Assembly (NCBI GenBank): GCA_037176725.1
Contig: JAZBRS010000074.1
Location: forward strand, 63,244,001-63,308,000
From: Posidonia oceanica
Lineage: Eukaryota; Streptophyta; Magnoliopsida; Alismatales; Posidoniaceae
Length of the DNA stretch: 64,000 bases
Direction: 5' to 3'
Below are positions 7,446 through 38,952 of this stretch, one piece after another. Position 1 is the first letter of the stretch. Every line of letters starts with the position of its first letter. Below the pieces are notes generated by a model, which worked only from the letters and a program-made list of their open reading frames with translations, had not been told where the DNA came from and searched no databases. The translations under genes were made by a program, and so were the position numbers.

Positions 7446-10400
7446 GGTCACACACTCACACAAAACCCCTTCCAAATCCAAGCCATTATCCTTCTTTCTC
7501 TCCTCATTATCCTTTTCTCTCTCCTCATTATCCTTTTCTCTTTTTCTCCTTCTTTTCCTCTCTTCCTTTCTCTTTTCTTGCTCTCCAATGGGCCCAGTCC
7601 ACTTTTGCTCCTCCTCACTTCTTCCCCTTCCTTCTTCCTATTTTATTTCTATTTTTATTTTATTTTATTCCATCTTATTTGATTTTTAAATATCTTCTTT
7701 CCTTTTCCTTCCTCCTTTCTTCTTTCTTTCTTTCTTTCTTTCTTTCCTATCTTCCCATTTCTTTTTCACCCAAGCCCACTCTATTTCCTTCTTCGATGCA
7801 AGCCCAGCCCACAGCCCACTAACACTCTTTTTCCCTTTTTTTTTCCTTCTTTCTCTTCCTCTTTTCCTTCCCTTTTCCCCCTTCTTTTCTTTTTCTTCTC
7901 ATTTTCCCCCCAAGCCATTTTCAATCCAGCCCACTTCCCTTCTTTATTTCTTTTTTTTCTTCTCCCAACACCAGCACAGGCCCGGCCCACAACCCATTCT
8001 TCTTTTTCTTCTATCATTTTCTTTCCCTCCGTCCTTCCTCCTTTTCTTTTTTTCCTTCTCATTTTTTTCACAGACCTCCTTCTTCTTCTTTCTTTCCTTC
8101 TTCAGCCCACAGCCCACGATCATCTCCTCCTCTTCTTCCCTCCTTTTGGCTCTGCTTCAAAAGCCTGCAACACTCCAACACTCACAACACCCAACCAACA
8201 CAGCAACACTCAACCCACTTGCAGACCCGAGCCCCTCACAAGCTCAGAAACCTTCACCACACTCCACCTTCTACACAGCCACCTTTCGCCGGCCTCCCCT
8301 CTCACTGCCAAACTTGCAACCCACCTGCAAACCAGCATCCCATGCCCTGCCAGCCTCCTCACTTGAGTGGCCAAGCCAGACCAAAACCAACACCCCATCC
8401 TCCCTTCCAATTGGTGAGCAACCAGAGAGGGCAAGTGCATCTCAGATTTTTCACTCCCAGAACCAGAGCTTCCACCCATCTCCGACCTACAGCTCCCCAC
8501 ACCCTCACACAGACACTTCGAGCTCACCAAATCCCTCACACACACTCACCACACAACCAGCTTCCAAACCCAACTCCCAGTTCCCTCCCAAGTGCCCGAC
8601 AGACCGCTTCCTCCACCACAAACACCCGGCTCCATCTCTGCTCAGAAAACACCAGAAGTTCACACAGCCACAGCCACGACATAGAAGCCCCCCTAATCAC
8701 CTCCTCCACACTCCTGGAACCACTAGCAACCCAAAGCACCACCGTAAGCGACCCAGAGAGCCACCAGCTGGAATCGAGCCCAGAAAAAACCAGAAGCCAC
8801 CCAAAATTCAAATTCCTTGCCTGAGCCTGCAAGCTCGGTTCTGAGCTGTCTAGAAGCTTCGCTGCGACGCCTAGAGCATGCGCTGATCGCCATGCAGCAG
8901 CTTCCGCCTCTGCAGCGCTGCCGCCAGCCGCCTGCAACCGCCAGACGCAACTCGACATTGCCAGCATGCGCCGGCACACTTCAAAGGTATTAAAGCTCGA
9001 ATCCTTCCTCATCGCATGTCTACACTGCTTCCTAGGTAATTAGTTTAGGTTTTAGAGACCTAGGTTAGATTTTAGCCGCCACCGTTGACTCGTCTTCTTC
9101 GGCGAGCTTCCGCAGCTCCGCCGTGCGTCCGGGCACACTAGGCCTCCCCCGAGCTTCGGAACCTTTCCCGAGCTCCGCCAGAGCTTCCCCGACCTGCTCC
9201 ATACCCGCACAACCATCACCGAAGCCCCGCGCACCTCTAGCAGCCTCTGCAACCGCCGGACTCCTACCCCGACGTCGACCGAGCGCTCCAGAGCAGCTCC
9301 AGGCCTCTGGATCATCCCTAGACCTTCGCCAGAGCTCCAGGAAGCTAGATCAGCACTGTCCGGCCACCACCGTAGCCTCCAGCACCTACATCGAACTCCG
9401 CCTTCTTCTGCATGCAACCTCCGGGTCGTCCGAACGACCCAGGCTGTCTCCGTTGCTCCAGGAGTTCCCCCAAGCATTGCCTCCACTCCAGGAAGCTCGC
9501 CGGCTCACCTCCAAGCCGTTCTGCAGCTTCCAGCGCTGGCTCCACCTTTGCTTCTCCGGCCAGAATCCCCTCCAGCCGTCAGCACGTTCCAGACGCTGCC
9601 GATCGCTGCCGACAGCTCCGGACGCTCCACCAGCACCGCCTCCTGCTTCCTCCGGCCTCAGCTTGGCCTCCAGCCCGCCGAAGCCGCCGCTACGACTTCC
9701 TCCTCCTCCAGCACTGTTGCTGAGGTCACGCGAGGAAGTCGATGACTGTAGCTTTATTTTTTTTGGTTTTTAAAAGTTTAGTAAGTTTAAAGCATGCATT
9801 GAAATTAATTTCTTTAGTTTTTAAATAGTTGCAAGTAGGTCCATCAGTAGTTAAGCATTTAGTTTTTTTTCTTTGCAGTGAAGCCCTTTAGTTGTTTTTA
9901 ATTACGTTTGCATCCTCTATCAACTGCTGTCATTTAATTTCTCTTTCTTGACTTTATTGCATTGAAGTAAACTCCTGTAGCTTCTTTTATTTGCATTCTA
10001 GTCCTGTGCATGGTTTCAGAATGATTTAAATCCATTTTCTTATCTTATTGCATTGCATAAAAGTACATTGGTTTGCTCATTTTGCTTTCAGGTCCTGTGC
10101 ATGGTTTATAAATCATTTGATCTGCATGTTTACCTTATTACATTGCACAAAATTGCCTCTGTTTATTTTTTATTGCATTTTAGTCCTCTGCTGGTTTCAA
10201 AAATAATTTAAATCACAATTTTATCATACTGCATTGCATTTTATATTCTGTGGTTTTCCATTATTGCATCTGGATCCTTTGTTCAATCAGATTTCATTTA
10301 ATGCATGTTTTAAATCTTATTGCATTGCTAAAAAACCCAGAAAAATAGCTTAATTGCACATCAGTCCTCATTCAGTTCATCCATATCATTTAATCTGCAT

Positions 10401-11504
10401 TTAAACTATATTGCATTGCTAAAAAACCAAAAAATATGTTTATTTGCATATCAGTCCATCTGCATGGTTTAAAACTCATTTAATCTGCAATTAAAACCAT
10501 ATTGCATTGCATTAAACATTTGTTTTATAAAATTGCATTTAAGTCCATATATTGTGAATCAGTAACCTTTTTTAAAACTTATTTGCATTGCATAAAACCC
10601 CATCACTTTGTTTTATTTGCATACAGGTCCATTCACAGCATGCATTTAAGTCCTGTTTTATTTTTCTACATTGCATCCACACCCCTGGCTTTTAAAATAT
10701 TTGCATCTAAGTCCCTGCATCAACTGCATTCATTTAAGTTACATTTTTCAACTATATTGCATTGCTAAAAAAACCCAGAAAAATGCCATAATTGCATATC
10801 AGTCCATTTTGCATGCATACATCACTTAATTTGCATTTTTAAACCACATTGCATTGTTTTAGGGTCCCATTGTTTTCTGAAATTGCGTATTGGACCTAGT
10901 TTTCAACTTTTGCATGTTTGTATGCTTTCTTTGCATTGCATTTAGGCCCTACAAGTTTTCAAAACTGCATTTAGGTCCTTTTCTTGTATTTGCATGCATA
11001 CCTTCCATTTAGCCTTGCATTCCTTCATGCATTTGTTGTATTATCATTTCCACATGCATTAGACCTGTTTTGCACCCTCATAGGGATATTTTGCATGTAG
11101 GCCCCTGTAGTTTTCCCAAATTGCAAATGGGTCCCTGCATTGCACTTTTGCATGCATTTACACCCCCATTGCATTAAGCATTGCATTCTTGCATGCATTC
11201 AATGATCCTCAGCACTCTTGCATGCATACATCCTTGTTTTACACACCCTTATGGACTATTTGCACTTAGGCCCCTACCTTTTCTGGCCCTTGAGCCTTCT
11301 GACTTGATTCCTGAATAACTTTTGATCGGACAGTTGGATTTCCACGATCTAACTGTCCAGGTCTTCCTAGTTGAATGATCTTTCATTTAAACCAAAGTTA
11401 TCTCAGATCAGGCCTCAGAATCTCAAGATAAGCCCATCTAAACACTGCACAGCATTCATTACATCTTCATTTGCATTGCATGCATCATTTTGCATGCCTG
11501 CATC

Positions 11505-11790: not shown

Positions 11791-13582
11791 CGCTTGCATT
11801 TGCATTAGGGCAGTGATGCTTACTGTCTGGAGTTCTCACGAACCAGTGTTCGCCCGGTTCAGAACACTGACTGCGCTGCTGAGCACATAGGTTGCACGTT
11901 TACTTTCCTTATGCATCGCATCATTTAGAACACACATTTGAGCATGTAATCACAGCATACTTAGCATTTAAGCATTCAGGCATATCATTTAGCAAGCATT
12001 CATGGCACTTAGGCATTCAAAGCATGCATCATCCCTCAAAAGCGAGCGTAAGCCTAGAAAGACCGATTCCTCAGGCGTGTTGGGGGTGCCTAACACCTTC
12101 CCCACGCGTAACAGAAGTCCTTACCCTTTCTCTGGCCCGCAATAACCCTTTTGCCCTGGTCCTTAGCACGAGTCATCTTCTTTGCATAGCATTGCATTGC
12201 ATTGCATCCTTTTGTGTGGTCTTGCATGTTTATTCATGCATTTCCCCAAATTTCCTTGTCTTCCGACTTAATAGACATGGTGGCGACTCCCTTTTGTCTT
12301 TTCTTTCTTTTTCCCTTTGGCTTTTTGCCCCTGTTTTCGGTGTTTTGAGTCGAGTTTCCTCCTCGGATCACCCGCTAATAATGAACCTGATTCCAATCAG
12401 TGCACGCGAGCTCTAGCAGCGTGCATGGACGTTCGCGAACTCTCGGGATCGCTACAGTAAGCATCACTACCCTGAATGCAAATGTAGGCGATAAAACAAA
12501 ACAGCGGTAAACCATGCAAATGCGAAGCAGCATGCAACATGGAAAGCGAAAGCAAGCATGGAAAACGGTGTGAATGCAAGCAATGTGCAAAGAAACAAAG
12601 CAGTCATGCAAAATGACGCAAATGCAAGAGAAAACGAATGCAGACACGCAAAACGATGCAAATACAAGCGAAAGCAAAAAGAACAGATGCTGGCACGTGT
12701 AGTAATCCTGAATTCTAATCGTCCATGCACGATACCAAAGCTCGCATGCACCGATCAAAATAGGCTCACTATATGCGGCAAGATCCGAGGGAAGAAACTC
12801 GTCTCGAAAACGCTGGCAAAAAGAAGAAAAAGAAATGATAAGACAAATCGGAGTCGCCACCAGGTCCATTGAATTGGGAGACAGGGAAAACCGAGGGTAA
12901 TACATGAAAAGACATGCAAAACCAGATGCAAAGAGGGGGCAAAGGGATGCAATGCTAAGCTATGCTATGCTATGCTATGACTCATGCCTAGGATAAAGGA
13001 AAGGTCGATGCGAGCCAAGAGAAAGGGCAAGGACTCCTGTTACGCACAGGGAAGGTGTTAGGCACCCCCAATACGTCCGAGAATCGGTCTTTCTTAGGCA
13101 ATCTCGCGCTAATGCAGGGAAATGCTAGCCTAATGCCTAAATGCAATGAATGTCTACCTACTATGCATGGGAAACAAACGTGCTATCTATGTGCTTAGCA
13201 ACGCTGCTAGTGTTCCGAACTGGGCGGACCCAGGTTCGTGTGAACTCCTAGGCAGTAAGCATCATAGCCCTAATGCAGATGCAGGCGATAAAACAAAACT
13301 GCGGGGAAAACCAGGCAATGCAAACGACATGCAAGAGATAAACCAAAGCAGGCATGGAAAACGATGCGAAAGAGCAAAAAACGATGTAAGGCACGGAAAG
13401 CGATGCAAGGCACAGAAAATGATGCAAGGCACGAAAAACGAGGCAAAAGCGGGGTGCAAAACCAAAATAGGGGTTGGGCAGCATGCATAGGGGTAGCAGC
13501 AGGCATAAGAAGCAATAAAACGCAGAAAACGGAGAACAAAGCAAAATCATCGTTTTAAAACTGTGTCAAGCCAACTACAAGC

Positions 13583-14964
13583 GTTGGACGCTGGCAACAG
13601 CAGCGTCCAACGTTGGACGCTACCATTGCTGGCGTCCAACAACTGCTAGAGGCAGACAGCATGCAAGTTTTGAAAAAAGATGTATTCTAACTATATGGAT
13701 GCAATACAGATGCAGAAATGCAACTAAATGGGTGCATGACATACAGGACTAACCTGACAGAAGATCAGAAGAGGAATTAGAGCAGGGGGCAAGCTAGGAT
13801 CAAGGATCAAAGCAAGCAGGGTGTTGGATGCCCGTGGGCATGGCGTCCAACGTTAGACGCTAGAGAGACAGGTGTCCAACACAGGCCAAAGAGAAACAAA
13901 AGAAAAAAAGCATACATATGACAAGTAAAAAAAAAATGGGAACATGCATTAGGGCTACTGGGGATAAACACAGAATGAGCATACAAGCATGGGATCACAC
14001 AAAAAGATCAAAACTTACCATCTGCAACCTGTGCCAGGCATGAAGCACAACCAGGACATTGGACGCGAGCTACGCTGGCGTCCAATGTTGGGCACCTGCA
14101 CCAGCAGCGTACAATGCCCTGGGAGGCACAAACACACAAGAACTTGCATAAAAGAAGCATATGATCTAAAGAAGCTATGGAATAATTGCAACGAAGGTTA
14201 GGCATGCATATAAACACAAGAATTATGCAAGCAAACAGATCAGAGCATCATGCAAGCTTTAAACAACAAAACAGAGGGGCTGGGACGTTAGACGTTGGAG
14301 ATAGTAGTGTCCAACGTTGGACGCTGAAGTCTCTGACGTCCAACGACTGCAGCATGCAAACCCACCTGTGCTAAGGGGGAGCTCAGCTCTAAAACCCCAC
14401 CTATATGCATGCAAACTACTAAAGACATGCCAGAGCGAAAGAATCATTCATAGCAAGCATGCAAATCAAGGAAAGCAAGAAAGGAAGAACATGCAAGGGA
14501 ATAAAAGATAAAAAGACTAAAAGAAATAACATGCAACTTAATAGGAGGCTAACAATCCTAAGCATGGTTGCCATAGAGGCCAGGCATCACTAAGCATACA
14601 CAGATCATGCATAGATATCAAAAATAGGCAAGGTACAAGCATGGCAACAAGATAAGATCAACAGGCATGTTGGACGCTGAGTAAACCAGCGTCCAACGTT
14701 GGACACGGCTCACCTAGGCGTCCAACGCAGGTAGAAAGCAGACAGACCTAAAGCATGCAAAATTGGCCCAAACTAGGATCAAAGCATGGATACAGGCATG
14801 GCATAGCATCTAAAAGCTTGTAAAGGAGGCATGCAACACAAACTCACAGAAATAAACCAACAGTAGAGCATGGAAAGCATTAGAACAAGAGCAATGGAAA
14901 ACTAGGCGTTGGACGCTGGCCTATGCCGCGTCCAACGTTGGATGCACCAGCTTGGGCGTCCAAC
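13583..14964. repeat. six paired 29-nt hairpin modules (GTTGGACGC type)
   Basis: Each unit is GTTGGACGC plus one base, about 10 variable bases, then GCGTCCAAC. Two units abut exactly, so the junction is the palindrome GCGTCCAACGTTGGACGC. Pairs start at 13583, 13823, 14058, 14287, 14669 and 14908, each spanning 57-58 bp. The 10-base loops differ from unit to unit while stems stay complementary or near-complementary. Spacing between pairs is 229-240 bp, with one of 382 bp. Function unknown. Confidence 0.9.
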
Positions 14965-15772
14965 ACACTGAACTTCGCTTCAGTCAAGCGAGGCCGCCAA
15001 ATCGATTGAAAACTTCAAGAAAACTTGCTAATAAGCAAGAGTGGATGGCAACAAGCATGGTGGTATGCTTGGTGCCATGAATAGGCGAGTGGATTGCTCC
15101 ACCGACCTCCTTCTCCTCATCACCGGAAAACCAAGCGATGGAGGGTTGTGTGCTATGCTAAGATGCATGGAAAGCAAGGAGAAACGATCACACTAATATG
15201 CATGAGCCTAAGGGATGGAAAACCTACCTGGTTGCGGCCTGGAACGGCGTGTCGACCTCCTTCACTGGCACTGTGGAAGTGGCGGCAGGGCTGACTTCGG
15301 CGAGGTCTTGCGGCCAGCTGGAGGCACGGGAGAGGGCGATGAAGGGTCTGGGAGGAAGGTGGATACTTCGTCTTTGCTCTGGAGGTGGAGAATTGCAAAA
15401 AGAGTGGGTGTGCTGGTCTATGTGTTCTTGTGAAGGACGTTGTTTGGTACTGGTTTTGTGCATGGGTTGCTTGGGTTCTCGTGCAGATGGCAGCAGATTC
15501 AAAGGAGAATTGCGGGCTTGGCAGGCTGTGGCAGGGGCTTCTGGGTGTAAGGAAGGCACGAGGGATGGCAGGGGTGTGGCGGGTGTGTGTCAGACGGCCG
15601 GCGAAGCCGCGGCGGTGGCTGATAAGGGCGGCCGAAGGTAGTGAGGGCCGAGAGAGCGGAAATGGTGCTGAGAAGGAAGGGATGGCTAGTAACTCGGCCT
15701 TGGAAGGTAGTGGATGGCATGGAGTGCAAAAGGGGACAGGTAGTAAGTGCGGGGAGGCAGTGGAGTGGACGG

Positions 15773-18700
15773 TGTAGTAATCCTGAATTCTGATCGTCCA
15801 TGCATGATGCCAAAGCTCGCGTGCACCGATCAAAGTAGGCTCACTATACGCGGCAGGATCTGAGGGAAGAAACTCGACTCAGAAACGCTGGCAAAAGAAA
15901 AGAAAAGAAATGATAAGACAACATCGGAGTCGCCACCAGGTCTGTTGAATTGGAAGATAGGGAAAACCGAGGGTAATACATGAAAAGACATGTAAAACCA
16001 GATGCAAAGAGGGGGCAAAGGGATTAAATGCTGAACTAAGCTATGCTATGCCATGCCATGCTATGACTCATGCTTAGGATAAAGGAAAGGTCGATGTGAG
16101 CCAAGAGAAAGGGCAAGGACTCCTGTTATGCACAGGGAAGGTGTTAGGCACCCCCGATACGTCCGAGCGTCGGTCTTTCTTAGGCAATCTCGCGCTAACA
16201 CAGGGAAATGCTAGCCTAATGCCTAAATGCAATGAATGTCTACCTGCTATGCATGGGAAATAAACGTGCTATCTATGTGCTTAGCAATGCTGCTAGTGTT
16301 CCGAACTAGACGGACCCTGGTTCGTGAGAACTCCTAGGCAGTAAGCATCATAGCCCTAAATGCAGATGCAGGTAATAAAGCAAAACTGCGAGGAAAACCA
16401 AGCAATGCAAACGACATGCAAGTGACAAAGCAAAACAGGTGCGGAAAACGGCACGAAACGTGGAAATCGATGTAGGGGCACGGAAATCAATGCAGGGGTG
16501 CGGAAAACAATGCAAAAGCGTAGAAAACAATGCAAAGGCGTAGAAAACGAGGCAAAGCACAGAAAATGAGGTAAAAGCGGGGTGCAAAACCAAAACAAGG
16601 GTTAGGCAGCATGCATAGGGGTTGCAGCAAGCATTAGAAGCCATAAAACACGAAAAACGACGAGCGAAACAAGATTGGCACTTTAAAACCAAGTCAGGCC
16701 AACTGCAAGCATTGGACGCTGGCAACAGCGACGTCCAACGTTGGATGCTGCCATTGCTGGCATCCAACACCTGCTGGAGGTAGACAGCATGCAGTTTTTA
16801 GGAAATGATGCTTTCTAGCTATATGGATGCAGTACAGATGCAAAATACAGCTAGATGGGGGTATGACATGCAGGACTAACCTAACAGAAGATTAGAAGAG
16901 GAATCAGAGCAAGGAGCAAGCTAGGATCAAAGATCAAAGCAAGCAGGTTGTTGGACGCCCCTAAGCATGGCATCCAACGTTAGACGCCAAAGGGACAGGT
17001 GTCTAACACAGGCCAGAAGACAGCAAGAGAAAAAAGCATTCAAAAGGCAAATAGAAAATGGGAGCATGCATTTGGGCTACTGGATATGAGCAGAGGGCAG
17101 ACATGCATACAAGGGAAGTATAAGAAACCAGAAAAACCTTACCTGTAGCATGTGCCAGGCCAGAGACACAACCAGAACGTTGGACGTGAGCTAGGCCGGC
17201 GTCCAATGTTGGACACCTGCACCAGCAGCGTACAACGCCCTGGGAGGCACAAACACACAAAAAACTTGCATAAAATAGCAAATAAACTAATGAAGGCTGA
17301 AGAACAGTTGCAAAGGAAGCTAAACATGCATGGAAACACAGGAGACATGTAAGCAAACAGATCAGAGCAACGTGCAAGCTTTAAACAACAAAATGAGGGA
17401 CTGGGACGTTAGATGCCGGAGACAGCAGCGTCCAATGTTGGACGCTGAAGCCTCTAGCGTTCAACGACCACAGCATGCAGACCTACCTGTGCTAAGGGGG
17501 AGCTCAGCTCTAACCCCACCTATATGCATGCAGGCATACTAAGGCATACCAGAGCAAAAGGAAACATCCATAGCAAGCATCTAACTTATGGAAAGCAAGA
17601 AAGAGGAAAGCATGCATAGGAGTATAGGATTAAAACTTTGCAAATAGGAGCAAGCAACTTAAAAAGATCCTAGCAAACCTAAGCATGGTTGCCATAGGGG
17701 CCAGGCATCTCTAAGCAAGCATGGATCACAAGCAAATATCAAAAATAAGCAAGGTGTACGCATGGCAGCAAGCTACAGCTAACAAAGGTGTTGGACGCTA
17801 GGTGAACCAGCGTCCAACGTTGGACGCGGCTCACCCAGGCGTCCAACGCAAGCAGATGACAGACAGACTTAAATCATGCAAAAAGACTTAGGCATGGATC
17901 AAAGCATGGATACAGGCATGGCATAGCATCTGGAAACACATAAAGGAGGCATGCAACACAAACTTGCAAAAACAAGCTAACAATAGAGCATGGAAAGCAT
18001 TAGAACATGAGCAAAGAAAAGTAGGGTGTTGGACGCTGGTCTATGCCGCGTCCAATGTTGGACGCACCCACTGGTGCGTCCAACTTACTGAACTCTCTTC
18101 TGGCCACGAATCACGGCCAAAAGGATTCAAAACATCAAGAAAATGCATGGGAACATGCTACCTAGCATGCATGAGCTACGGGGATAGAGAACTTACCTCG
18201 TTGCGGCCTGGAACGGCATGTCGACCTCCTTCACGGTGCTGCGGAAGTGGTGGCAGAGCTGACTCCGGCGAGGTCGTGCGGGCTGCTGGAGGCATGGGAG
18301 AGGTCGACGAAGGGTCCGGAGTGGAGGTGGATCTTTGGTCTTGCTCTGGAGGTGGAGAATTGCAGAAGGAAAAAGCTGTGCTCATCTGTGCATTCTGAGG
18401 AAGAAGGGTGTTTGGCGCTGGTTTTGTTCAATGGGTTGCTTGGGTTTTGCTGCAAATGGCAGCGGCTCAGAGGGGAATTGGCAGGGGCTTTGAGTGTGCT
18501 GAGGCCACAAGGATGGCAGGAGAGGGTGTGGGCATGTCAGCCGGCCGGCGAAGGAGCTGCTGGTGGCAGTGAGGAGATGAGAGAGTGGAAATGGTGCTGA
18601 GGAGGAGAGGATGGGTAGTAACTGGGCTTTGGAAGGTAGTGGATGGCATGGGGTGCGAGAGGGGACGGGTAGTAAGTACGGGGAGGCGGTGGAGTGGACG

Positions 18701-19053
18701 GGAGGTGAGCCGAAGGAGGCGGAGCAGCCGCTGCTGCAACCGAGTCGTTGGACGCTAGAGCAGGAGGCGTCCAATGTTGGACGCTGGCACAGGACGCGTC
18801 CAACGTTGGACGCTGCCTATTCAAGCGTACAACGCACTTAGTTGGCAGAAGGCTACAAATGGGCTTGGGCTTGGGCTAAAAAGGTTTAAAAAGGTATAAA
18901 AAGGGCTTGGGTTAAGGCTTGGGATTTAGGTAAGGTTTTGGGCTAGGTTTTAGGGTAGAAAAGGGGTTGGAAAAAGGAGTGCCATTCCAGAGTCCACACG
19001 AGCCTGTAGGAGAAAACAACCAACTTTCGGGCTATCAAAATGGGGTGTCTACA
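15773..19053 (-). mobile_element. inner solo LTR with TSD GACGG
   Basis: A 3281-bp minus-strand LTR, start TGTAGACACCCC at 19053 and end ATTACTACA at 15773. TSD GACGG is at 15768-15772 and 19054-19058. It belongs to the same subfamily as the LTR it entered: the terminal 350 bp (18700-19053) is nearly repeated at 19057-19409. The perfect donor-like GAG/GTAAGT (minus) is at 18192-18199 after a GC-rich block. It is among the youngest events in the window because nothing interrupts it. Confidence 0.9.
16711..18833. repeat. six paired and one triplet 29-nt hairpin modules
   Basis: Pairs start at 16711, 16950, 17179, 17408, 17790 and 18028; a triplet spans 18747-18833. Starts are 239, 229, 229, 382 and 238 bp apart, almost the same spacing as in the sister LTR at 13583-14964. 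This shows the array was inherited as an ordered set and not made independently in each copy. Confidence 0.9.
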
Positions 19054-19100
19054 GACGGGAGGTGAGCCGAAGGAGGCGGAGCAACTGCTGCAACCGAGTC

Positions 19101-19187
19101 GTTGGACGCTGGAGCAGAAGGCGTCCAACGTTGGACGCTAGCACAGGGCGCGTCCAACGTTGGACGTTGCCTATTCCAGCGTACAAC
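19101..19187. repeat. triplet 29-nt hairpin module
   Basis: Three abutting 29-nt units (19101-19129, 19130-19158, 19159-19187) form the distal module of the outer solo LTR and match the triplet at 18747-18833. The last unit has a mutated arm (GCGTACAAC), which is also seen in the sister copy. Confidence 0.88.
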
Positions 19188-22100
19188 AAACTCAGTTGGC
19201 AAAAGGCTGCAAATGGGCTTGGGCTTGGGCTTAGAAAGGTTTGAAAATAGTGTAAAAAGGCTTGGGTTAAGGCTTGGGGTTTAGGCAAGGGTTTTAGGCT
19301 AGGTTTTGGAGTAGAAACGGGTTAGGAAAAAAAGAGTGCCATTCCAAAGTCCAAACAAGCCTACAAGAGAAATTGCCAACTTCCGGGCTGTCAAAATGGG
19401 GTGTCTACAGCACGTAAAACGATGCAAAGTGCAAGCGAAAGCGAAAGCGAAAGCGGGTGCGGCAAAGCCTAATCTACATGCATGAGAAGAGAGATTGCAA
19501 AAACATTGCATGCAATGCAAATGACAAGGCAATGAATGCTATGCAGTGCTTCAAATGGGTTTATCTTGGGAATCTGAAGCCTGATCTGAGATAACTTTGG
19601 TTAGAATGAAAGATCATTCAACCAGGATGACCTGGGCAGTTAGATCGTGAAGATCCAATGGTCCGATCAAAAGTTAATCAAGAAACAAGTCAGAAGGCTC
19701 AAAAGCCAGCAAAAGTGATCTAAGTGGGGGCCTAAGTGCAAATTACCCTTAAGTGTGTGCAATGCAGGGTGTTCTACATGCAAGGGTGCTATGAGCAATG
19801 ATATGGGAGTGCTATGCATGCAAAATGCAAATGCAGGGACCTAAGTGTAATTTTAAGAAACTACAGGGACCTATGTGCAATTTGGGTAAATGCAGGGGCC
19901 TATATGCAAAATATCCCTATGTGCATGCAAAACAAGGCAAATGTATGCAAGAATGTTAATGCAACAATGCATGGGTGAATGCAATGCTAAATGGAAGGTG
20001 TGTATGCAAAAATGCAAGAAAAGGACCTAAATGCAATTTTAGAAACATGCAGGATCTAAATGCAATACAAAGAAAGCATGCAAACTTACAGAAGTTGAAA
20101 ACAGGGGACTGACATGCAATTTCAGAAAATAGTTGGACCTTAAAAGGATGCAATGTGGTTTGAGATTGCAATTTAAGTGATGCATGCATATGCAAAGGAC
20201 TTAAATGCAATAAACACAAGTTGTAGGACTTTATTGCAATGTAATAAAGTTTAATATCACATTTAAATCACAGTTATAAGAAAACTAGACTTAAATGCAA
20301 TAATGGGAAACCACAGAACTTTATTACAATGTAATAAGGTTTAAAATTGCATATTAAATCACAGTTATAAGAAATCTGGACCTAAATGCAATAATTGAAA
20401 CTTGTTGGACTTTATTGCAATGTAATAAGATTTAAAATCCACATTTAAATCAAATCTGAAATCAGATTGGACCTAAATGCAAATATTAAAACCCTGTGGG
20501 CTTTATTACAATGCAATAAGGTTAAAAAATACATTTAAATCACAAATGATATGTGACTGGACCTAAATGCAATTAAAACATGTTTTTGGGGTTTTCTGTA
20601 ATGCAATATAGTTTAAAACATGCTTTAAATGAAATGAATGAATGAACTGAGGACTAAATTGCAATTAAACTATTTTTCTGGTTTTTTTAGCAATGCAATA
20701 TAGTTTAAGTGCAGATTTAAATGAAATGCATGAACTGTGGTTGAACTAAAATGCAAATATTAAAACAAGCAGCATTTTATTTCAATGCAATATGATTTAA
20801 AATGCAGATTAAATGAAATGCAAACCAACTGAGGACTAGAATGCAAATTAAATAAAACCAAGGACTAAAATGCAATGCATGCCTTAAAACTAACATTCAG
20901 ACATTTTAAATGAATGCGTGGAGGACCTATGTGCAAATAGAGTAAAACACTAGACCAGACAGTAATGCAATAAGATTAAAATGCAAACATAAATGATTTC
21001 TAAATCACAACAGGACCCAGATGCAAATAAAATAAACTGAAGCAGAATAAATTAATGCAACCATAGAAAAATAAAAACATTAGGTTGCTATAGTGCTACA
21101 ATGTCTCTCGACACTGCAGCACCGCAGCCGGGGAAGATGGGTGGCGCAACGGCCGTCCGGCGAGCGGCGGCCTGAGCCAAGGTGTCTAGAGGCTAGAGGG
21201 CACTCTCCCAGTGGCTTTGGTGGCTTCAGCGGCACGAATGGTGGCCGGAGGCGGTCTGACGACGCGGAGGAACTGTTGCAGTGGAAGCCAGGGGTGGAAC
21301 TGGAGCTGGGAGCTGCTGCGAAGCTCGGGCGGAGTTGGGGAAGCTTTCCGGAGGTCCAGCAAAGGCAGGCGAGCTGATCTGGAGGCCAGAGATGGGGCGG
21401 GAAGCTCTGACGACCTCACGAGTTTTTGCAGAGAAGACGGCAGACAGGAGGAGCTCTAGAGTGTGCAGCGAGGTCCGAAGAAGGCTAGAGGAGCATCCTG
21501 GAGTCTCGGCAGAGCTCGGGGCGAAGTTTGGAAGGATCTGGGGTACTGTGGCGTGCAGAGGCATGCGGCGGAGCTTTGGCGGTTGCAAAGGAGTGCACAG
21601 GCAGAGGAAGGTCTCGAACAGCTCGTGGATGATCAAGGGAGACTCCTGGTGTCTCGGTGGAGCTTGGGGGATGGTCCGGAGCGACGGAGGAGCTTCAGAG
21701 CAGCAAGGCGATGCCGGCGGAGCCGTGGGAGCTAACCAGAGAAGACGACCTTGCGGTAGAGCCAAAAAACTAACCTAAGGCACTAAACCTAAAACTAACT
21801 AACTAGAAAGCTTAAAAGGCATGCACTGAGTAAGGATTTAGGGTCGGTTACCTTTGAAGCGTGCCGGCGCATGCTGACAATGTAGAGTTGCGTCTGGCGG
21901 TTGTAGGCGGCTCGTTGTGGCGCTGCGGAGGCTGGGGGAGCTGCACGGCGATCGGAGCACATTCCTAGTGCTACAGTAGAGCTTTAGAGCGGTTCAAGCG
22001 CGAGCTTGCGAGCATGGGCAAGGAGAATGAATTTTGGGTGTTACCGAAAATTCTGGTTCTTTCTCCGACAATGTGGCTCTCTTCGGCTACTGGGATCTCT

Positions 22101-24666: not shown

Positions 24667-27597
24667 CGTTGTGATGCCGGATGACCGACACGAGTGAAAA
24701 GAGAGGATCACAGATGAATGGTGAATCTGAGGATGAAAACTCGACTCGAAAACACCGAAAAATGGCAAAGAAAACAAAATAATAAGACAAAACGGAGTCG
24801 CCACCTAGTCTATTGTCGGAAGATGAGGAAAATCGAGGAAAAAAAATGATATGCATGCGATATGATGCAAAATGTATGACTCATGCCAATGGATGCAAAC
24901 ACGAAGGTCATTGCGGGCCAAGAGAAAGGGTAAGGACTCCTATTACGCATGGGGAAGGTGTTAGGCACCCCCATGCGCCCAAGAAGCGGTCTTTCTAGGC
25001 TAATCTCGCTCGCATGTGTGGAAATGTAGGCGATAATGCCAATTGATGTATGCTTGATGCTTATGCTTAGCAAATGAATGCATGCCATGCCAAGATATGC
25101 TTAATGTCATTTAAGAATGCGCTTAGATGTAAATGCCATGAGTTAGATGCTAAGAATGCATGATGGATGTCATGGAATCAATGATGAATGTCAAAACATG
25201 CTCTGGAATCACAATAGTAGAAGGGAAGCTAAGATACAAGCAAAGCAAAGTGGGAAATGGATGCTCTGTCCACTGTCCAGGTCCCTATGAAAAATGCGAG
25301 AGGTCTACGCGAGACCTTCCCATGGTTCAAGTTCATTACAGACAGTGAACTTCATCGCAGAATTGGATGCTTAAATCGTTTCAAAACATTGAAATGCCAA
25401 TCGGTAATGCTCGAGGGAACACCAGGGAACAAACAGGAACAATCAAAATGAAAATAGGCTACCTGGTTCACCCTCCCCATCCCCTATGCTCGTTGCCGGA
25501 ACCAATGGATTCGACAGCCACCGTGAGGCCCGGAATTCCACTGAACACAGCTGAGACTTTCTGAGGAGGTTAACGAAGGTAGAGACGCAAGAAGGAAAGC
25601 AAGCCAAAACAAAAGGAGAAGAAACGGAGGCCGTCCGACCCCCCACCATTGCACCTCACTGAGACACCGGCTTGGCACGGCCATTGACAAGAATCCGACC
25701 GAGGCACGGCTGCGTCGAGGTCGCAGAGGCGTCTGGAGCATCAGAGGGGCGATGGGTAATGGATGCACGCAAGAGGATGGGCTGCAGTTCGTGCTCAGGG
25801 GCTGCTCGCCTCACACGGCTACAAGCTCATCGCCGGCAGACACAAAACACGACGGAAAAGCGAGGAAGAGCAAACCGAGAAGGGAAGCACTAAATGTGAT
25901 GCAAACGACGATGAGAACACAATAACGCAGCAAGGATTGAAGCTACCAGAGCATAAGAGGCCAAGCACCTACCTGTGTGAATAAATGGGTTGTCCCTTCC
26001 GGCGAGCTTTGCGGCGGGTGTCTCCGGGTCAGCGGCGGCTCAGGGTGACAAGGTAGAGGCTGGGACAGGTGCTAGATGTTGCTGGTTGTTTAGGCTTGCT
26101 CGTAGGATGGCTGGCCTGAGGTGGGAGGCGGCACAGAGATTGGATTGATGTTTGGGTGGCTGGAACTAGAAATGAAGGTCGTTAAGGGTGGTGCAGGCTG
26201 TTGTAAGGTTGTGGTTATGTCTGGGAGTGGCTGGGTGATGCAGAGAAGGCCAGGAGAGTGTCCCAAGTGGCCGAGAATATGGAGAAGAGAAATATGGGGG
26301 CTGGGTGTGACTGGGGTGGTCGGAGAAGAAGGTTAATGGCTAGAATGTGTCTGTGGTTGGCTGGGAGGCATGCTCAGGCCAAGGGGATGAGCTGGGTGGC
26401 TGGCTGGAAGGTGTGAATGTGCCCTTTTTTCTTTTTTAAGGGTTCGGACCGGAGAAGGGTCTGAAAGAGAAGAAGGTCTTCACGGATGGGAGTGACGCGG
26501 AGAGGGAAAACGAAAAGATAAAGCAAAAGGGAGTCGCCACCTAGTCTATTCAATCGGGAGACGAGGAAAACCGAGAAAAGCATGAAAACATGCAAAAGGA
26601 TGCAATGATATGCAAAATGTATGACTCGTGCCAAGGACAAGGGCAAGATGGTCATTGCGGGTCCAGAGAAAGGGTAAGGACTCTTGTTACGTGCGGGAAA
26701 GGTGTTAGGCACCCCCAACATGCCCGAGTCAGTCTTTCTTGGCTAATCTCGCTTGCATTTATAGGATATCGACAAATGATTGCCTAACTGTACGTCCAAA
26801 GGACGAGGAATGCTATGCCATGCTATGGATGCTCAGATGCAAGCCTAAATGCCTAAATGTTGTAATAACATGCCCAAGTGTATACTATAAATGCTGTGAT
26901 GCATGGAAAAAGGGGAAACATACAATCTATGTACTCAGCTGTGCTGTCAGTGTCCCGAACGGGACGGGCCCTAGTTCGTAAGAACTTCTGACAGTAAACA
27001 TCACTGCCTTAATGCAAATGCAGGCAAGAAAACAAAGCGTCAATAAAACCACACAATGCAAGTGTACGACATGCAAAGGGGAAAGAGGATAGAAGCGATA
27101 AACCGTGCAAGGCGAGTGTGAAACAAAACATCAAGTAAAAAGCCACGCAATGCAAGTGTGAAACAAGCAAATGGGAAACAAAACAGGGTCGAAAAATCCT
27201 AATCTATATGCGCGAGAAAACAGATTGTGGAAACAATGCATGTGGTGCAAGTGGTAAGGTCCTAAGTGATATGCAGTGACTCAAGTGGGCTTATTTTGAA
27301 GATCTGGGGCCTGATCTGAAGTAACTTTGATTAGAATGGAAGATCATTCAACTAGGAAGATATGGATAGTTAGATCGTGAAAATCCAACGGTCTGATCAA
27401 AAGTTATTCAGTTTTCAAGTCAGATGGCTCAAGGGCCAGAAAAAGTGGTCTAAACGGGGGTCTAAGTGCAAATTACCCCTATGTGTGTGTAATGCAGGGT
27501 GTCCTACATGTAATGAGGCTAACAATACTCAAATAGATGCTATGGTGCGATATGCAATGATATGAAGTTGCAATGCATGCAAGAATGCAAAAGATAG

Positions 27598-27840
27598 GGG
27601 CCTAAGTGCAATTTAAAGTAAATGTAGGGGCCTGAGTGCAATTAAAGTAAATGCAAGGGCCTAAGTGTAATTAAAGTAAATGCAGGGGCCTAAGTGCAAT
27701 TAAAGTAAATGCAAGGGTCTAAGTGCAATTAAAGTAAATGCAGGGCCCTAAATGCAATTAAAGTAAATGCAATGGCCTAAATGCAATTAGAATAAATGCA
27801 GGGGCCTAAATGCAATTAGAATAAATGCAGGGGCTAAAAT
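27598..27840. repeat. 29-bp tandem repeat, about 8 copies
   Basis: Unit GCAATTAAAGTAAATGCAGG plus GGCCTAAGT, 29 bp, in near-perfect register with single-base differences. It is a locally expanded form of the 'TTTGCATTTAGGCCCC' periodicity found in all LTRs of this family. Confidence 0.9.
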
Positions 27841-28479
27841 GCAAATGCCACGTGTAGATGCATGCAATGCGATAAGGTCCTAAATGTGACAAGGACTAAA
27901 ATGCAATATGCTAAAATGTGAGGACCTAAGTGTAATGCCAGAAATGATGCATGCAATGCAAATATGTAAAGTCTTGAATGCATTTTAGACTAAAGTGTAA
28001 TATGCAATTAATTTGAGGACCTAAATGCAATGCTAGAAATGATGCATGCATGCAATGTAGTCCTGATGTGATTTGAATGAATGAATGCATGTAAGAGGAC
28101 TTAAATGCAAATAATGCAAAACTACAGAAATAGCAATGCAGTATGATTTAAATGCATGCAAATGGACCTATGTGTAAATATGCAGAACTATTGGACCTAA
28201 TTGTAAAGTGACTAGAAATGCTGTGAATGCAATAGGGTTCTAAAAATGAATTAAATGAAATTCAATGCATGAAGGACCTAAATGTAATAAAACTAAAATG
28301 CTGGATTAAGTGTTAATGCAATATGGTTCTAAAAATGGATTAAATGAAATGCAATGCAAGATAGACCTAGTTGCAATAAAATGAAAATGCTAGACCTAAC
28401 TGTAAAGAAATAAAAATGCAATGCATGCAACTACAGGACCTGTCTGCAATATAACTAAAGTGCAGGACTTAAACATAAT

Positions 28480-28950
28480 GCAATAAGGTTCTAAAGGAAG
28501 ATTAAATGAAAGCTAGACAGAAACTGGACTTACTTGTAATAAAAATAAAACTACAAACTAAAAGCTAATGTAATAAAGTTTCAAATGAAAATTAAATGAA
28601 ATGCAACATATAACTAGACTCAACTGTAATAAAAATAAAGTTGCAGACTAAAAGCTAATGTAATAAGGTTTCAAATGAAAATTAAATGAAATGCAACATA
28701 TAACTGGACTAAACTGTAATAAAAATAAAGTTGCAGACTAAAAGCTAAAGTAATAAGGTTCTAAAAAGAAATTAAATGAAATGCAACATATAACTGGACT
28801 AAACTGTAATAAAAATAAAGTTGCAGACTAAAAGCTAATGTAATAAGGTTCTAAAAAGAAATTAAATGAAATGCAACATGTAACTGGACTAAACTATAAT
28901 AAAAATAAAGCTGTAGACTAGAAGCTAATGTTCTAAAAAGAAATTAAATG
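28480..28950. repeat. 90-bp tandem repeat, about 5 copies
   Basis: Copies are marked by TAACTGGACTAAACTGTAAT at about 28611, 28701, 28791 and 28881, an exact 90-bp period. The unit is A-rich. Confidence 0.9.
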
Positions 28951-30104
28951 AAATCTAAACCAGGACAGGACCTATTTGTAATAAAAATAAACCAGCAGAT
29001 TAAAATGTAATGCAATAAAGTTCAAACGAAAATTAAATGAAATCATACACATAACTGGACTTGCATGTAATAAAGTAAAACTAAAAGACTAAACATTAAT
29101 GTAAAGCAAATGTAATAAGGTAAGAAAAAATAAATGAAATGATAACATTCGAATGAAATCAATCGTGCGGTAAAAAAATAAGTGAACAGTGCACCCAAGG
29201 CTCGTCGAGGAAGACGACCTCGCAGCGGCGCTCCAGGGGGCCAATGGAGCTGCGGAGAGGCCTGGAAGCCGGAGGCGGTTGTGCCGGAGGCATCATCGGC
29301 ATGGAGCGACGCCTGGAGCGTTCTGCCGGCTCCGGTCTACAGGTGCAGGCACAGCTGCGGGCGAAGGAGGAGGTGCAGGCGTCGGCTGAGCTCGCTCGGC
29401 GCGTGGCTAAGCTCACGGGGGTCTGGAGAGTCGGTCTGGAGGTGAGGGGAGCGCCCGGTGCGACAAAGCTCGCTCGCGGCTGGTGGCCGTCGCCGGGGAA
29501 GACGATGGATTCCAGCAAGGCGAAACGGCGAGATTCGAACCAGAAGATACGAGCGACGATCCAGGAAGCAATAAGGGGACCTAACGAAGCTAGTGGGAAC
29601 GTTCATTACCTGTGAGCGTACTCGGAGGGGTCTGACGACCTCGAATGGGTGCGGCCGAGGTGCGGCGAGCGGAGGTGCCGCTGGAGGCGTTGGGAAGCTT
29701 CAGGCGCGATCCGAGCGTGTCGACGGAGCTGCGGGGAGGGTCCGGGAAGCAATGGACAGTCCTCTCCTCCTCTCTGCACTCAGATGGTTGTAGTGGGTGC
29801 ACACAGTGATTTTTCACTCTCTTTCTTCTCTCTATAGCTCTCACAGGGGTCGGCCCTTGCAAGTGGGTTCGTGAGTGGCTCGTGAAGGTGAAGAGCGAAG
29901 GAGGAATTGTGTGGAAGCAAGGGAGAGGAGAAGGCGGGAAGCAAGAGCGGCCAATGCAGTTCCAGTCAGAGAAGCTAGGTTTTCTCTCCCTCCAAAAAAA
30001 GTGGAGGCTGCTACTGTTTATATTGGTGGGGAGATGAGGAGGACCAATGGATTCGATCTGAGCAGAGGGGATGGTCAGCCAAGATGAGGGTGAGGTGGAG
30101 GCAA

Positions 30105-33500: not shown

Positions 33501-36038
33501 TGTAGACATCCCATTCTGACAACCTCGAAGTTGGTGGATTTCTCCCGCAAGCTCGTTTGGACTCTGGAATGGCACTCCTTTTCAGACTAACCCATTTCTA
33601 TCCAAAACCAAACCTAAAACCCTTGCCTAAACCCCAAAGCCTCAACCCAAGCCTTTTTGCATTTTTTAAACCCTTTTAAGGCCCAAGCCCAAGCCCATTT
33701 TCAGCTTTTGCCTCCTGGGTGTGTTGTACGCTGGAATAGGCAGCGTCCAATGTCAGACGTGCCTTATGCTAGCGTCCAACGTTGGACGCCTTTTGCTCTA
33801 GCGTCCAACGGCTCGGTTGCAACAGCGGCTGCTCCGCCTCCTTCGGCTCACATCCCGTCCACTCCACCGTCCCTCCGCACTTACTACCCGTCCCCTCTTG
33901 CACTCCAGGCCATCCACTAACTTCCAAAGCCGAGTTACTCCACTTACTACCCATCTTTTCATCCCCAGCCCGTTTTCTGCACTTTGCTACCATGCTTGCA
34001 TCATGCCTCTTTTCGTGATTTATGCTTGATCCATGTATGCTTAGAGATGTCTGGCCCCTATGGCAACCATGCTTAGGCTTGCATCATGCCCTCTTAAGTT
34101 GCATGCTTTTTCCTTGGATTTTTATCCTTTATTTCCATGCATGCTCTCTCTTTATTTGCTTCTCTTGAATTATATGCTTGCTATGAATGTTTCTTCTTGC
34201 TCTGGCATGTCATCAGTAGTTTGCATGCATGTTAGTGGGGTTTAGAGCTGAGCTCCCCCTTGTGCAGGTGAGTTTGCATGTTGCAGGCGTTGGACGCCGG
34301 TGACTTCAGCGTCCAACGTTGGACGCTGCTGTCACCAGCGTCTAACGTCCCTGCTGCTCTGTCTTGTTCTTTTAAGCTTGCATGATGCTCTGATCTGTTT
34401 GTTTACGTGATTCCTGTGTTCATATGCTTGCTTAGCCTTCTTAGCATCTGATTCCTATGTTCATATGCTTGCTTAGCCTTCTTAGCATCTGTTTGTTTCA
34501 TAGCTTTCTTAGATCATATGCTATGTTTTGTGCATGTTCTTGTGTGTTTGTGCCTCCTAGTACGTTGTACGCTGCTGTTCCAGGCGTCCAACATTGGATG
34601 CTGGTTCAGCTCACGTCCAACGCTCTGGTTGAGCTTCATGCCTCGCACATGCTGCAGATGGTGAGTTTTTTTGGTTTCTTTCGCATCCTGTGCTTGCATG
34701 CTTAGTCTATGCTTGTCTCCAGTAGCCCAAATGCATGCTCCTATTTTTTATTTGTCATCTGTATGCCTATCTGTCTTGTTTTCTTCTGGCCTGTGTTGGA
34801 CGCCTGTCACTCTGGCATCTAGCGTTGGACGCCATGCCCTAGGGCGTCCAACATCCTGCTTGTTTCAGTTGCTAATTTTAGCTTGCCCCTTGCTCTGAAT
34901 CTGCTTCTGGTTTGCTGTCCTGTTCGCCCTACATGTCATGCACCCATTTAGCTGCATTCCTGCTTCTGTATTGCATTCATATAGCTAAGTGGCATCCTAT
35001 TTCAAAAGTTGCATGCTGTCTGCCTCCAGCAGGTGTTGGACAACAGTAATGCCAGCGTCCAACGTTGGACGCCGGTGTTGCCAGCATCCAACGGTTGCAG
35101 TAGGCTGAATTTGATTTTTAAAATGCTGACTTGATTTCGTTCGCCGTTTTCCGTGTTTTATGGCTTCTTATGCATACTACTACCCCCACGCATGCTGCCT
35201 AACCCCCGTTTTGGTTTTGCACCTCGCTTTTGCATCGTTTTCCGTGCCTTTGCATTGTTTTCCGCGCCCCTGCATCGTTTTCTGCGCTTTTACGTCGTTT
35301 TTTGTGCCCCTACATCGTTTTCCGCACCTTTGCATCGTTTTCCATGCCTTTGCCTCGTTTTCCGCATTTTCGCACCGTTTTCCGTGCCTGCTTTGGTTTC
35401 CCCTTGCATGTCGTAGCATTGCCTGGTTTTTTCCCCGCTGTTTTGTTTTATTGCCTGCATCTGCATTAGGGCTATGATGCTTACTGCCTAGGAGTTCTCA
35501 CGAACCAGGGTTCGCCCAGTTCAGAACACTAGCAGCGCTGCTGAGCACATAGATAGCACGTTTATTTCCCATGCATAGCAGGTAGACATTCATTGCATTT
35601 AAGCATTAGGCTAGCATTTCCCTGCATTAGCGCGCGAGATTGCCTAAGAAAGACCGACTCTCGGACGTATCGGGGGTGCCTAACACCTTCCCCGTGCGTA
35701 ACAGGAGTCCTTGCCCTTTCTCTTGGCCCACATAGACCTTTCCTTCATCCTAGGCACGAGTCATAGCATAGCATCGCATTGCATTGCATCCCTTTGCCCC
35801 CTCTTTGCATCCAGTTTTGCATGTCTTTTCATGCTTTACCCTCGGTTTTCCCTGTCTCCCAATTCAATAGACCTGGTGGCGACTCCGATTTGTCTTATCA
35901 TTTCTTTTTCTTCTTTTGCCAGCGTTTCCGAGTCGAGTTTCTTCCATCGAATCCTGCCGCATATAGTGAGCCTATTTTGATCGGTGCACGCGAGTTTTGG
36001 GCATCGTGCATGGACGATCAGAATTTAGGATTACTACA
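33501..36038 (+). repeat. 5' LTR, 2.5 kb, hairpin-module subfamily
   Basis: Starts TGTAGACATCCC at 33501 and ends ATTACTACA at 36038. It is the plus-strand relative of the two solo LTRs in 12698-19409. It carries one triplet and four paired 29-nt hairpin modules, a minisatellite TGCATCGTTTTCCG(C/T)GCC (35220-35400), the conserved R/U5-like part (35460-36038) and the PBS-like TGGCGACTCC at 35877. Confidence 0.9.
33723..35092. repeat. 29-nt hairpin modules: one triplet, four pairs
   Basis: Triplet 33723-33809; pairs start at 34289, 34564, 34795 and 35035. All 11 units are 29 nt with conserved 9-10-nt arms and variable 10-nt middles. Several arms carry single mutations (for example GTTGTACGCT, GCATCCAAC), but register is never lost. 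Confidence 0.9.
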
Positions 36039-36039
36039 G

Positions 36040-36057
36040 TGGCGACTCCACTGGGGA
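36040..36057 (+). other. primer binding site (tRNA-Arg-like)
   Basis: TGGCGACTCCACTGGGGA, one base after the LTR end at 36038. It differs from the site at 59221-59238 by a single base. Confidence 0.88.
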
Positions 36058-37313: not shown

Positions 37314-37530
37314 ATGCCATGCTATGCTATGAATGCTTTAATATTCTTAAATGCCATTTTGAAACCGTGCTATGCTTAGTAAAAACATGCTAGAATGGAT
37401 GATTAAAGTTGCAATGCCATGATGTAATGATAAATAAGCCAGGGAAGCAAAGTCAAAGCCAAGCGAGTTAAGTAAATGAGAAACGAGGTGAAAAATGGGT
37501 GCTCTGTCCACTGTGTGAGCTCAAGCGTGT

Positions 37531-37670
37531 GTCGTTTGTCATCTCGGCGACAAGACACGTCGCCAGTTGGAGCGGTGGCGGCGCAGGTCGCCTATTAAAG
37601 CGACGGCGGCACGAGTCGCCTATGAGAGCGGCAGCGGCACAAGTCGCCTATCGGACAGGCGACAGAGCCC
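37531..37670. repeat. 28-nt phased array (GTCGCC type), five units
   Basis: Units begin at 37531, 37559, 37587, 37615 and 37643, exactly 28 bp apart. Most contain GTCGCC and a downstream GGCGAC or GGCGGC arm; the last holds a near-perfect GTCGCCTATC/GGACAGGCGAC hairpin. It corresponds to 59882-60015 in the partner LTR. Confidence 0.88.
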
Positions 37671-38896: not shown

Positions 38897-38952
38897 GTCG
38901 CCTCTCAGCACGGCAACAGAACTAGTCACCGCTGGGATAGGCGACAGAACTG
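38897..38952. repeat. 28-nt hairpin array (GTCGCC type), two units
   Basis: Units 38897-38924 and 38925-38952, form GTC(G/A)CC, 8 bases, GGC(G/A)AC, AGAACT. The partner LTR has three units at the same place (61242-61325). Confidence 0.88.

Follow-up and report, generated by a model that had tools for sequence, protein, structure and literature searches.

Long terminal repeats (LTRs) of a retrotransposon family in Posidonia oceanica carry arrays of palindromic units of 28 or 29 nt, in which the 9-nt arms differ far less between copies than the loops they enclose or the spacers that separate the arrays' members, and this pattern leads us to lean towards the view that the units are half-site arrays for a putative sequence-specific DNA-binding protein. 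The arrays were analyzed in a stretch of 64,000 bp (GenBank assembly GCA_037176725.1, contig JAZBRS010000074.1, positions 63,244,001 to 63,308,000; hereafter the window, numbered from its first base), above all between positions 13583 and 19187, and in a sample of the host genome. An initial annotation of the same DNA had offered four readings of the units, namely, a structured RNA in the LTR transcript, a source of hairpin small RNAs, a protein-binding dyad, and a nucleosome or replication feature; the protein-binding reading is the one that our results favor, and the RNA readings lose ground for want of a compensatory excess of changes in the arms.

Architecture of the arrays

Between positions 13583 and 19187 we found 30 units of the form GTTGGACGC-11-GCGTCCAAC, 15 per LTR, with 0 to 4 arm mismatches per unit. 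As the initial annotation had claimed, nearly all of them (28 of 30) are 29 nt long, the other two being 28 nt with a 10-base loop. A third LTR of the window (33723-35092) holds 11 more units of the same kind. There are 13 units with perfect arms in the window, 10 of them in 13583-19187, and 100 dinucleotide shuffles yielded none. Abutting units also form 18-mer palindromes at their junctions; with up to 3 mismatches allowed, the window has 22 of these, and the controls average 0.02. When abutting spaced palindromes were sought irrespective of arm sequence, at a score of at least 22 of 27, which misses more decayed dyads, 20 were found in the window and 0 in each of eight Markov controls; all 20 were either the main motif or a sister motif with arms GTAAGACGC/GCGTCTTAC. 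Since a looser scan for units, allowing as many as 6 mismatches in the arms, gave 121 hits versus 61-93 in Markov sequences, only low-mismatch units of 28-29 nt were used.

The two LTRs in question belong to one family, as the term "sister LTRs" in the initial annotation implied, but they do not lie side by side: an inner solo LTR (L2, 15773-19053, minus strand) is inserted in an outer solo LTR (L1, minus strand), a nesting that can be read directly. L1 consists of a larger piece with six dyads (12698-15772, starting TGTAGTAATCC...) and a remaining 5' piece with a triple (19059-19409, ending ...GGGGTGTCTACA). Both LTRs have the termini TGTAG...CTACA and are flanked by 5-bp target duplications (GCACG at 12693-12697 and 19410-19414 for L1; GACGG at 15768-15772 and 19054-19058 for L2), and they are 82% identical over 2397 columns. 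It follows from the nesting that the triple at 18747-18833 belongs to L2 and that at 19101-19187 to L1.

Each of these LTRs carries six abutting pairs of units (dyads), in keeping with the pairs described by the initial annotation, and, in addition to these, one triple, whose distance from the LTR 5' end is about 220 bp (222 bp in L1). All lie on the minus strand. The dyads of L1 are A (13583-13640, two 29-nt units), B (13823-13880), C (14058-14115), D (14287-14344), E (14669-14726, after the 382-bp step), and F (14908-14964, 29 + 28 nt); those of L2 are A (16711-16768), B (16950-17007), C (17179-17236), D (17408-17465), E (17790-17847, with perfect arms), and F (18028-18084, again 29 + 28 nt). 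Dyad E of L2 was recovered by the exact-arm and arm-agnostic scans, dyad C of both LTRs and both triples by the unit scan, and the others by the unit and arm-agnostic scans. The steps between dyad starts are 240, 235, 229, 382, and 239 bp in L1 and 239, 229, 229, 382, and 238 bp in L2, which agrees with the recurrence of 229-240 bp, interrupted by one 382-bp gap at the same place in both LTRs, that had been claimed.

The third copy (L3, 33501-36038, plus strand) is a 5' LTR with a triple (33723-33809), four dyads (34289-34346, 34564-34621, 34795-34852, and 35035-35092), and one 275-bp step. One nucleotide after its end starts a primer-binding-site-like stretch, TGGCGACTCCACTGGGGA (36040-36057, plus strand), read directly in the sequence. 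Because L3 is a 5' LTR followed by this stretch, the sense strand of L1 and L2 is the minus strand. The stretch may be of the Ogre, tRNA-Arg primer-site type, and on this tentative assignment, together with the length of the LTRs, the family of L1, L2, and L3 is classed as Ogre/Tat-like. A sister LTR piece (M, 61531-62830, right border approximate, minus strand) has arms GTAAGACGC/GCGTCTTAC in a single unit (61824-61851) and three dyads (62036-62093, 62264-62321, and 62505-62561), at steps of 212, 228, and 241 bp; the middle triplet of its dyad arms is AAG in 10 of 12 and AGG in 2 of 12.

Conservation of the arms and retention of CpG

At non-CpG sites the arms diverge between copies 3-5 times less than the loops and the array spacers. 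Across three LTR pairs, the differences amounted to 3.9, 5.0, and 6.8% in the arms, 16.1, 20.3, and 21.2% in the loops, and 21.2, 19.7, and 24.5% in the array spacers (arm versus spacer, P = 1.3e-8, 9.2e-5, and 1.4e-5; arm versus loop, P = 0.0011, 0.0021, and 0.007), the rates of loops and spacers being indistinguishable. Within one LTR, the mean identity between units is 0.845-0.885 for the arms and 0.30-0.36 for the loops.

The CpG content follows the same division. In the genomic sample defined below, the observed/expected ratio of CpG is 1.05 in 201 dyads and 0.20 both in 74 spacers and in the loops. In the window, the ratio is 0.95, 0.87, 0.85, and 1.13 in the dyads of L1, L2, L3, and M, respectively, and 0.05, 0.04, 0.15, and 0.43 in their spacers, with 0.21-0.30 in the loops of L1-L3, so that dyads hold 30 of the 34 array CpGs in L1, 29 of 33 in L2, and 19 of 24 in L3. 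Elsewhere in these LTRs it lies at 0.65-0.99, apart from the middle of L3 (0.41), the M pieces (0.56-0.61), and the 220-bp 5' ends (0.21). TpG is raised in the spacers of L1-L3 (1.53-1.61 versus 1.00-1.20 elsewhere in these LTRs), and CpA is raised both there and elsewhere in the LTRs. Where the arms of the 41 units do depart from the consensus, 29 of 52 departures are CpG decay. The plain reading of these figures is that deamination has emptied the unconstrained array DNA of CpG and that selection has retained the CpGs of the arms, which suggests that the arms were under purifying selection during the active life of the elements.

Dyad spacers are not alone in being CpG-void: the tandem repeats of other LTRs in the window are equally poor. 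These are nearly CpG-free repeats of 89-92 bp (and 29 bp) at 9985-10510, 20197-20858, 27596-29061, and 46943-47578, some units of which hold loop-less palindromes, e.g., TTATTACA-A-TGTAATAA.

Abundance, phasing, and middle triplets

The exact 29-nt unit with its 11-base loop occurs 82,515 times in the host assembly (2.96 Gb, 80 contigs), counted over the whole assembly in any sequence context and not restricted to LTRs, and the reversed control pattern occurs 0 times. Details were obtained from a sample of 285,203 bases comprising the window and 27 loci (twenty 10-kb stretches and seven of fifteen 3-kb loci, the other eight overlapping), which were taken around the first exact main-family units listed, all on one contig (C1), so that proportions are biased towards the main family. 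The sample contains 333 core units, against 12-13 in three Markov controls. Its dyads number 201 when the overlapping pairs within triples are counted, and none occurred in any of four Markov controls. Phasing at 28-29 nt, the family-wide absence of which had been named in the initial annotation as fatal to the pattern, is kept in 198 of the 201 dyads: 134 are 29 + 29, 33 are 28 + 28, 31 mix the two lengths, and 3 are of other kinds. Of 173 junction-to-junction gaps, 65 measure 220-250 bp, 12 measure 28-30 bp (triples), and 25 lie between 250 and 600 bp.

The phasing is unchanged where the arms differ in the middle triplet of GT[nnn]ACGC (TGG, AAG, TAT, and others). By majority triplet, the 201 dyads divide into TGG (134), AAG (15), TAG (14), AGG (10), TGA, TAT, and AAA (5 each), TGT (4), and others with fewer; 53 dyads are uniform, having one triplet in all four arms (TGG in 46, TAT in 4, AAG in 2, and AAA in 1). 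The arms of one dyad agree with each other (0.76-0.79) more than with the arms of other dyads (0.65-0.67). Two limits apply to these comparisons: the loci contain nested LTRs of several families, with copies not sorted into elements, and the scan requires the core GT...ACGC with few mismatches, so that part of the core's constancy follows from the search itself. The arm-agnostic scan of the twenty 10-kb stretches (L019-L038) found the same GT...ACGC kind of arm with several middle triplets. In five of them (L022, L031, L034, L036, and L037) there are dyads of 28-nt units with arms GTTATACGC/GCGTATAAC, and in three (L034, L036, and L037) one arm reads GCTTATAAC.

Sequence identity versus base pairing

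Among the refutations that the initial annotation had named was the lack of an excess of compensatory changes in the arms. Such an excess was not found, pairing arms being no more alike than non-pairing ones. In 148 non-uniform dyads, the agreement of middle triplets was 0.682, 0.694, 0.689, and 0.680 for the four pairing arm pairs and 0.676 and 0.716 for the two non-pairing ones, a difference of -0.010 (bootstrap, -0.040 to 0.016); among 101 non-redundant dyads it was -0.012 (-0.050 to 0.020). Among the 134 TGG dyads, both arms of a pairing couple had changed at the same non-CpG position 18 times, with 17.9 expected. Broken down by arm pair, these double changes numbered 0, 11, 1, and 6 (expected, 3.5, 4.9, 2.7, and 6.8), and the non-pairing arm pairs had 4 and 9 (expected, 4.5 and 3.7); one pairing class, within the second unit, is thus raised (11 versus 4.9), but so is one non-pairing class (9 versus 3.7). 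Covariation had been hinted at by the sister arms GTAAGACGC/GCGTCTTAC and by the triplet agreement of the two arms within a unit (166 of 333 versus 118.6 expected; without TGG, 31 of 83 versus 9.9), and was rejected because non-pairing arms agree equally: the triplet agreement is a likeness among all arms of one dyad, not a matter of pairing. These results suggest that each arm is conserved as a sequence and not as half of a stem, which counts against a purely structural reading, and since pairing arms are no more alike than non-pairing ones, protein binding is favored over the RNA readings.

A structured RNA, in which each dyad would form one hairpin of 58-66 nt (or two of 29 nt) in the LTR transcript and serve packaging or dimerization or be read at its arms by an RNA-binding protein, therefore seems unlikely, for all that several observations speak for it. 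On the sense strand, 16 of the 19 dyads and all 3 triples of the window fold into one long hairpin, the other 3 dyads into two short ones, and the sense fold beats the antisense fold in 14 of these 22; there is, however, no strand bias of G-U over A-C mismatches, either in the arms (20 versus 24, P = 0.65) or in the loops (30 versus 22, P = 0.33), and Rfam 15 gave 0 matches at the gathering threshold over the whole window. By a strict score, 10 long near-perfect palindromes occur in the 64 kb, with 0 in three controls; 9 of the 10 are dyads or triples, and the score is missed by 13 of the 22 dyads and triples of the window. The two loops of a dyad are complementary to a small excess (at the best shift, 4.96 versus 4.26 matched bases, equaled in 0 of 1000 shuffles; in fixed register, 84 of 1000; 76 non-redundant dyads). 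They are so in the window too, where 719 permutations gave 2 as good at the best shift and 29 with the loops kept in register. This pairing exceeds the 95th percentile of mismatched pairings at three of the seven positions (A, E, and the triple) and does not exceed it at the others (B, C, D, and F), and dyads A and D each have one loop position with a both-sided transversion between copies that keeps pairing. The loop complementarity is real but small and may either go back to an inverted duplication or reflect some minor function of the folded form.

Origin of the array and the remaining alternatives

Spacers at different positions of the main family have a weak similarity (mean z of 0.83-2.99 per position pair, up to 5.1), on a scale on which no value above 1.8 was obtained with 60 segments drawn at random from the window, and two spacers of M are similar at a z of 5.1. 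Between the main family and M, spacers at the same position give a z of at most 1.2, showing no orthology, and at any position 4 of 33 pairs exceed 1.8, the largest value being 2.7; the similar spacer lengths of the two may be independent. The sequences suggest that the arrays probably grew by old tandem duplication, after which only the half-sites stayed alike. The statement in the initial annotation that the pattern is not ordinary tandem-repeat homogenization holds insofar as it is the arms, and not the whole 235-bp unit, that stay alike, and has to be qualified insofar as the leftover similarity of spacers points to an old duplication that seeded the array.

The same leftover similarity, the trace of loop complementarity, and the greater likeness of arms within a dyad are what would be seen if the units were a mutational residue, i.e., ancient tandem duplications in inverted orientation, devoid of function, whose copies have stayed similar through template switching or gene conversion. 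We consider this improbable: conversion tracts would need to end at the 9-nt arms, the loops being near random identity, and CpGs are kept in the arms and lost in the loops and spacers. Very little speaks for a small-RNA source, in which the RNA of the dyad hairpin would be diced to 21-24-nt RNAs: some dyads offer stems of about 29-33 bp on paper, but the stems are short and interrupted, and the loops, from which a third of each such RNA would derive, are as divergent as the spacers. Equally remote is a role in chromatin spacing, with CpG-dense islands about 235 bp apart in CpG-poor DNA positioning nucleosomes or marking replication or recombination, for although L1, L2, L3, and M often show steps of 228-241 bp and CpG is confined to the arms, the steps are not strict (382 bp in L1 and L2, 275 bp in L3, and 212 bp in M), only 65 of the 173 sample gaps measure 220-250 bp, and the conserved 9-nt sequence is left unaccounted for.

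A proposed half-site model

The protein-binding explanation that we favor can be set out as follows: (i) the 9-nt arms, which read GTTGGACGC in the main family and have the core GT...ACGC, would be one half-site each; (ii) two half-sites would face each other across an 11-base (or 10-base) loop, about two helical turns apart from center to center in the 29-nt units; (iii) two abutting units would make up a composite site, repeated about every 235 bp, with a triple added some 220 bp inside the LTR 5' end; (iv) an old tandem duplication would have built the array, in which loops and spacers drifted and half-sites were held by selection during active life, to decay after insertion, mostly at CpG; (v) the other middle triplets of sub-families would reflect a recognition protein shifting its specificity; and (vi) the protein would act in cis on the LTR, as a transcriptional activator, comparable to the factors that bind the BII boxes of Tnt1, or as protection from silencing, comparable to VANC21. 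The conservation of arms one by one, the drifting loops, the fixed spacing of units, and the arrays with other triplets would all be expected if a protein reads a GT[nnn]ACGC half-site. What the sequences show directly is the conservation of the arms, their phasing, their number, and the want of covariation between pairing arms; that there is such a protein, whether it belongs to the host or to the element, and that it activates or counters silencing is what we infer.

Several observations weigh against this explanation: (i) conservation is not confined to the array, since the LTR outside it differs by 13.2, 8.0, and 10.3% at non-CpG sites in the three pairs, so that the arms change only 1.5-3.4 times more slowly and the array spacers are the fastest-changing part of the LTR; (ii) the triplets do not follow sub-families neatly, 148 of the 201 dyads being mixed, and arms agree hardly more with those of other dyads at the same locus (0.667) than with those at other loci (0.648); (iii) T2 and A6 of the arm are near-invariant (529 of 536 each in TGG dyads), which is partly an artifact of the scan; (iv) the loops show the complementarity described above, which half-sites alone would not lead one to expect; (v) the palindromic layout of the motif is left unexplained; and (vi) a Pfam search of 20 stop-to-stop open reading frames (ORFs) left 19 without a match and identified one DUF7588, with no candidate reader and no ORF for a reader encoded by the element among those scanned.

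A wider form of the half-site explanation can be put forward tentatively, as a possibility that we rate as doubtful: a "half-site code," in which giant Tat/Ogre-type LTRs would share a fixed palindromic scaffold (9-10/11-9, abutting, with a period of about 235 bp) whose middle triplet is re-set in each sub-family; a protein encoded by the element, or a fast-evolving one of the host, would read it, and each sub-family would have a private regulatory address. Were this so, LTR retrotransposons would have their own version of the VANDAL/VANC arms race, with tens of thousands of copies per genome. Should the units be a binding array at all, one short probe could retrieve the cognate protein, and the natural triplets would provide a ready-made series of specificities; the arrays would also show how very long LTRs are organized and would extend sequence-specific regulation of the VANDAL type to LTR retrotransposons. 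For any host factor that reads the motif, 82,515 exact sites are a large sink, and CpG-keeping motifs in CpG-poor arrays are a simple signature to seek in other genomes.

Related sequences in the window

A related LTR at 59240-61530 (minus strand; membership uncertain) and its copy at 37312-39158 hold GTCGCC-9-GGCGAC palindromes in two clusters (59882-60014 and 61242-61318 in the former), one of them about 210 bp from the 5' end, with a 28-nt period. These palindromes were considered as constrained arms and set aside, there being no sign of it between the two copies, in which differences amount to 9.5% in the arms (8/84), 12.7% in the loops (8/63), and 10.0% in the rest (169/1693). LTRs of the window that have little else in common share some 250-400 bp at their 3' ends, with an identity of about 65-85%, at 1602-1984, 12698-13057, 24737-25040, 26506-26752, 35634-36038, 48064-48435, 54747-54996, and 59326-59605. 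A 30-nt tandem repeat of about 23 copies lies at 48765-49449, in an LTR whose 3' end is that of the main family, and shorter repeats of similar appearance lie at 13350-13447 and 35225-35389.

As to coding sequence, an ORF at 56818-57594 in a neighboring related element had 32 protein matches, part of them with the retrotransposon gag domain PF03732 and one from the sedge Rhynchospora; the gag matches and the LTR type both point to a plant host. No reverse transcriptase or integrase was detected by Pfam in the 20 ORFs scanned. The interior of L3 is truncated. The open frame with DUF7588 (PF24496; 62931-63605, plus strand) adjoins M and perhaps belongs to another inserted retroelement. In viral contigs, exact junctions of the main family were found in three stretches, about the chance number for an 18-mer by our own estimate, and the one inspected had 98 bases without a second unit; the sister junction had 0 occurrences there.

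Comparison with known systems

Among the matches listed, open-access titles and abstract openings contained no description of palindromic unit arrays in Ogre/Tat LTRs, subscription literature being mostly outside the search, and no plant-LTR title appeared among the 15 listed of 256 open-access matches to any of the four arm strings. One of the closest parallels comes from Arabidopsis, where VANC21 binds a 9-nt motif arrayed in VANDAL21 and removes silencing (Hosaka et al. 2017, PMC5735166). Both cases have a 9-nt motif in many copies in the non-coding parts of one transposable element family, spread by tandem duplication and differing between sub-families (PMC5735166, PMC10398659); the VANC-type trait of a multiplied short motif is present here with varying middle triplets (46 uniform TGG dyads versus 7 others). 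The motifs there have the same orientation (PMC5735166), whereas here the 9-mers are inverted, in units of 28-29 nt that abut in pairs; moreover, the host is a MULE there and an LTR here, where the reader protein is postulated from the DNA.

An element-encoded reader is conceivable in view of two reports: a plant mobile domain is found in the extra ORF of 57% of Ogre elements (PMC6317226), and in Arabidopsis mutants of MAIN, MAIL1, and PP7L a promoter motif is common to 25 of 26 jointly down-regulated genes (PMC7156037).

Other plant retrotransposons show parts of the pattern. In Tnt1, the BII boxes of U3 are described as known to bind defense-induced factors, and an additional BII repeat has been reported in one element (PMC3316501, PMC2923131); a short motif repeated in the LTR U3 is the likeness, and the difference is that 12-15 units extend here over kilobases, as strict palindromes with middle triplets that have no counterpart in those extracts. 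Retand elements, of a related Tat-lineage clade, also have family-specific short repeat arrays in non-coding parts, and DNA binding has been suggested for their antisense ORFs; these arrays occupy the stretch from pol to the 3' LTR, outside the LTR itself, and the text of the paper mentions no hairpin, and palindromes only among its references (PMC11963269). Del elements likewise concentrate CpG in part of the LTR, but there as whole islands, the 5' one being variable in sequence and length (PMC4029996), whereas here CpG lies mainly within the conserved 9-nt motif. Regulatory motif arrays of transposable elements are known; the architecture and scale of the arrays in P. oceanica are unusual.

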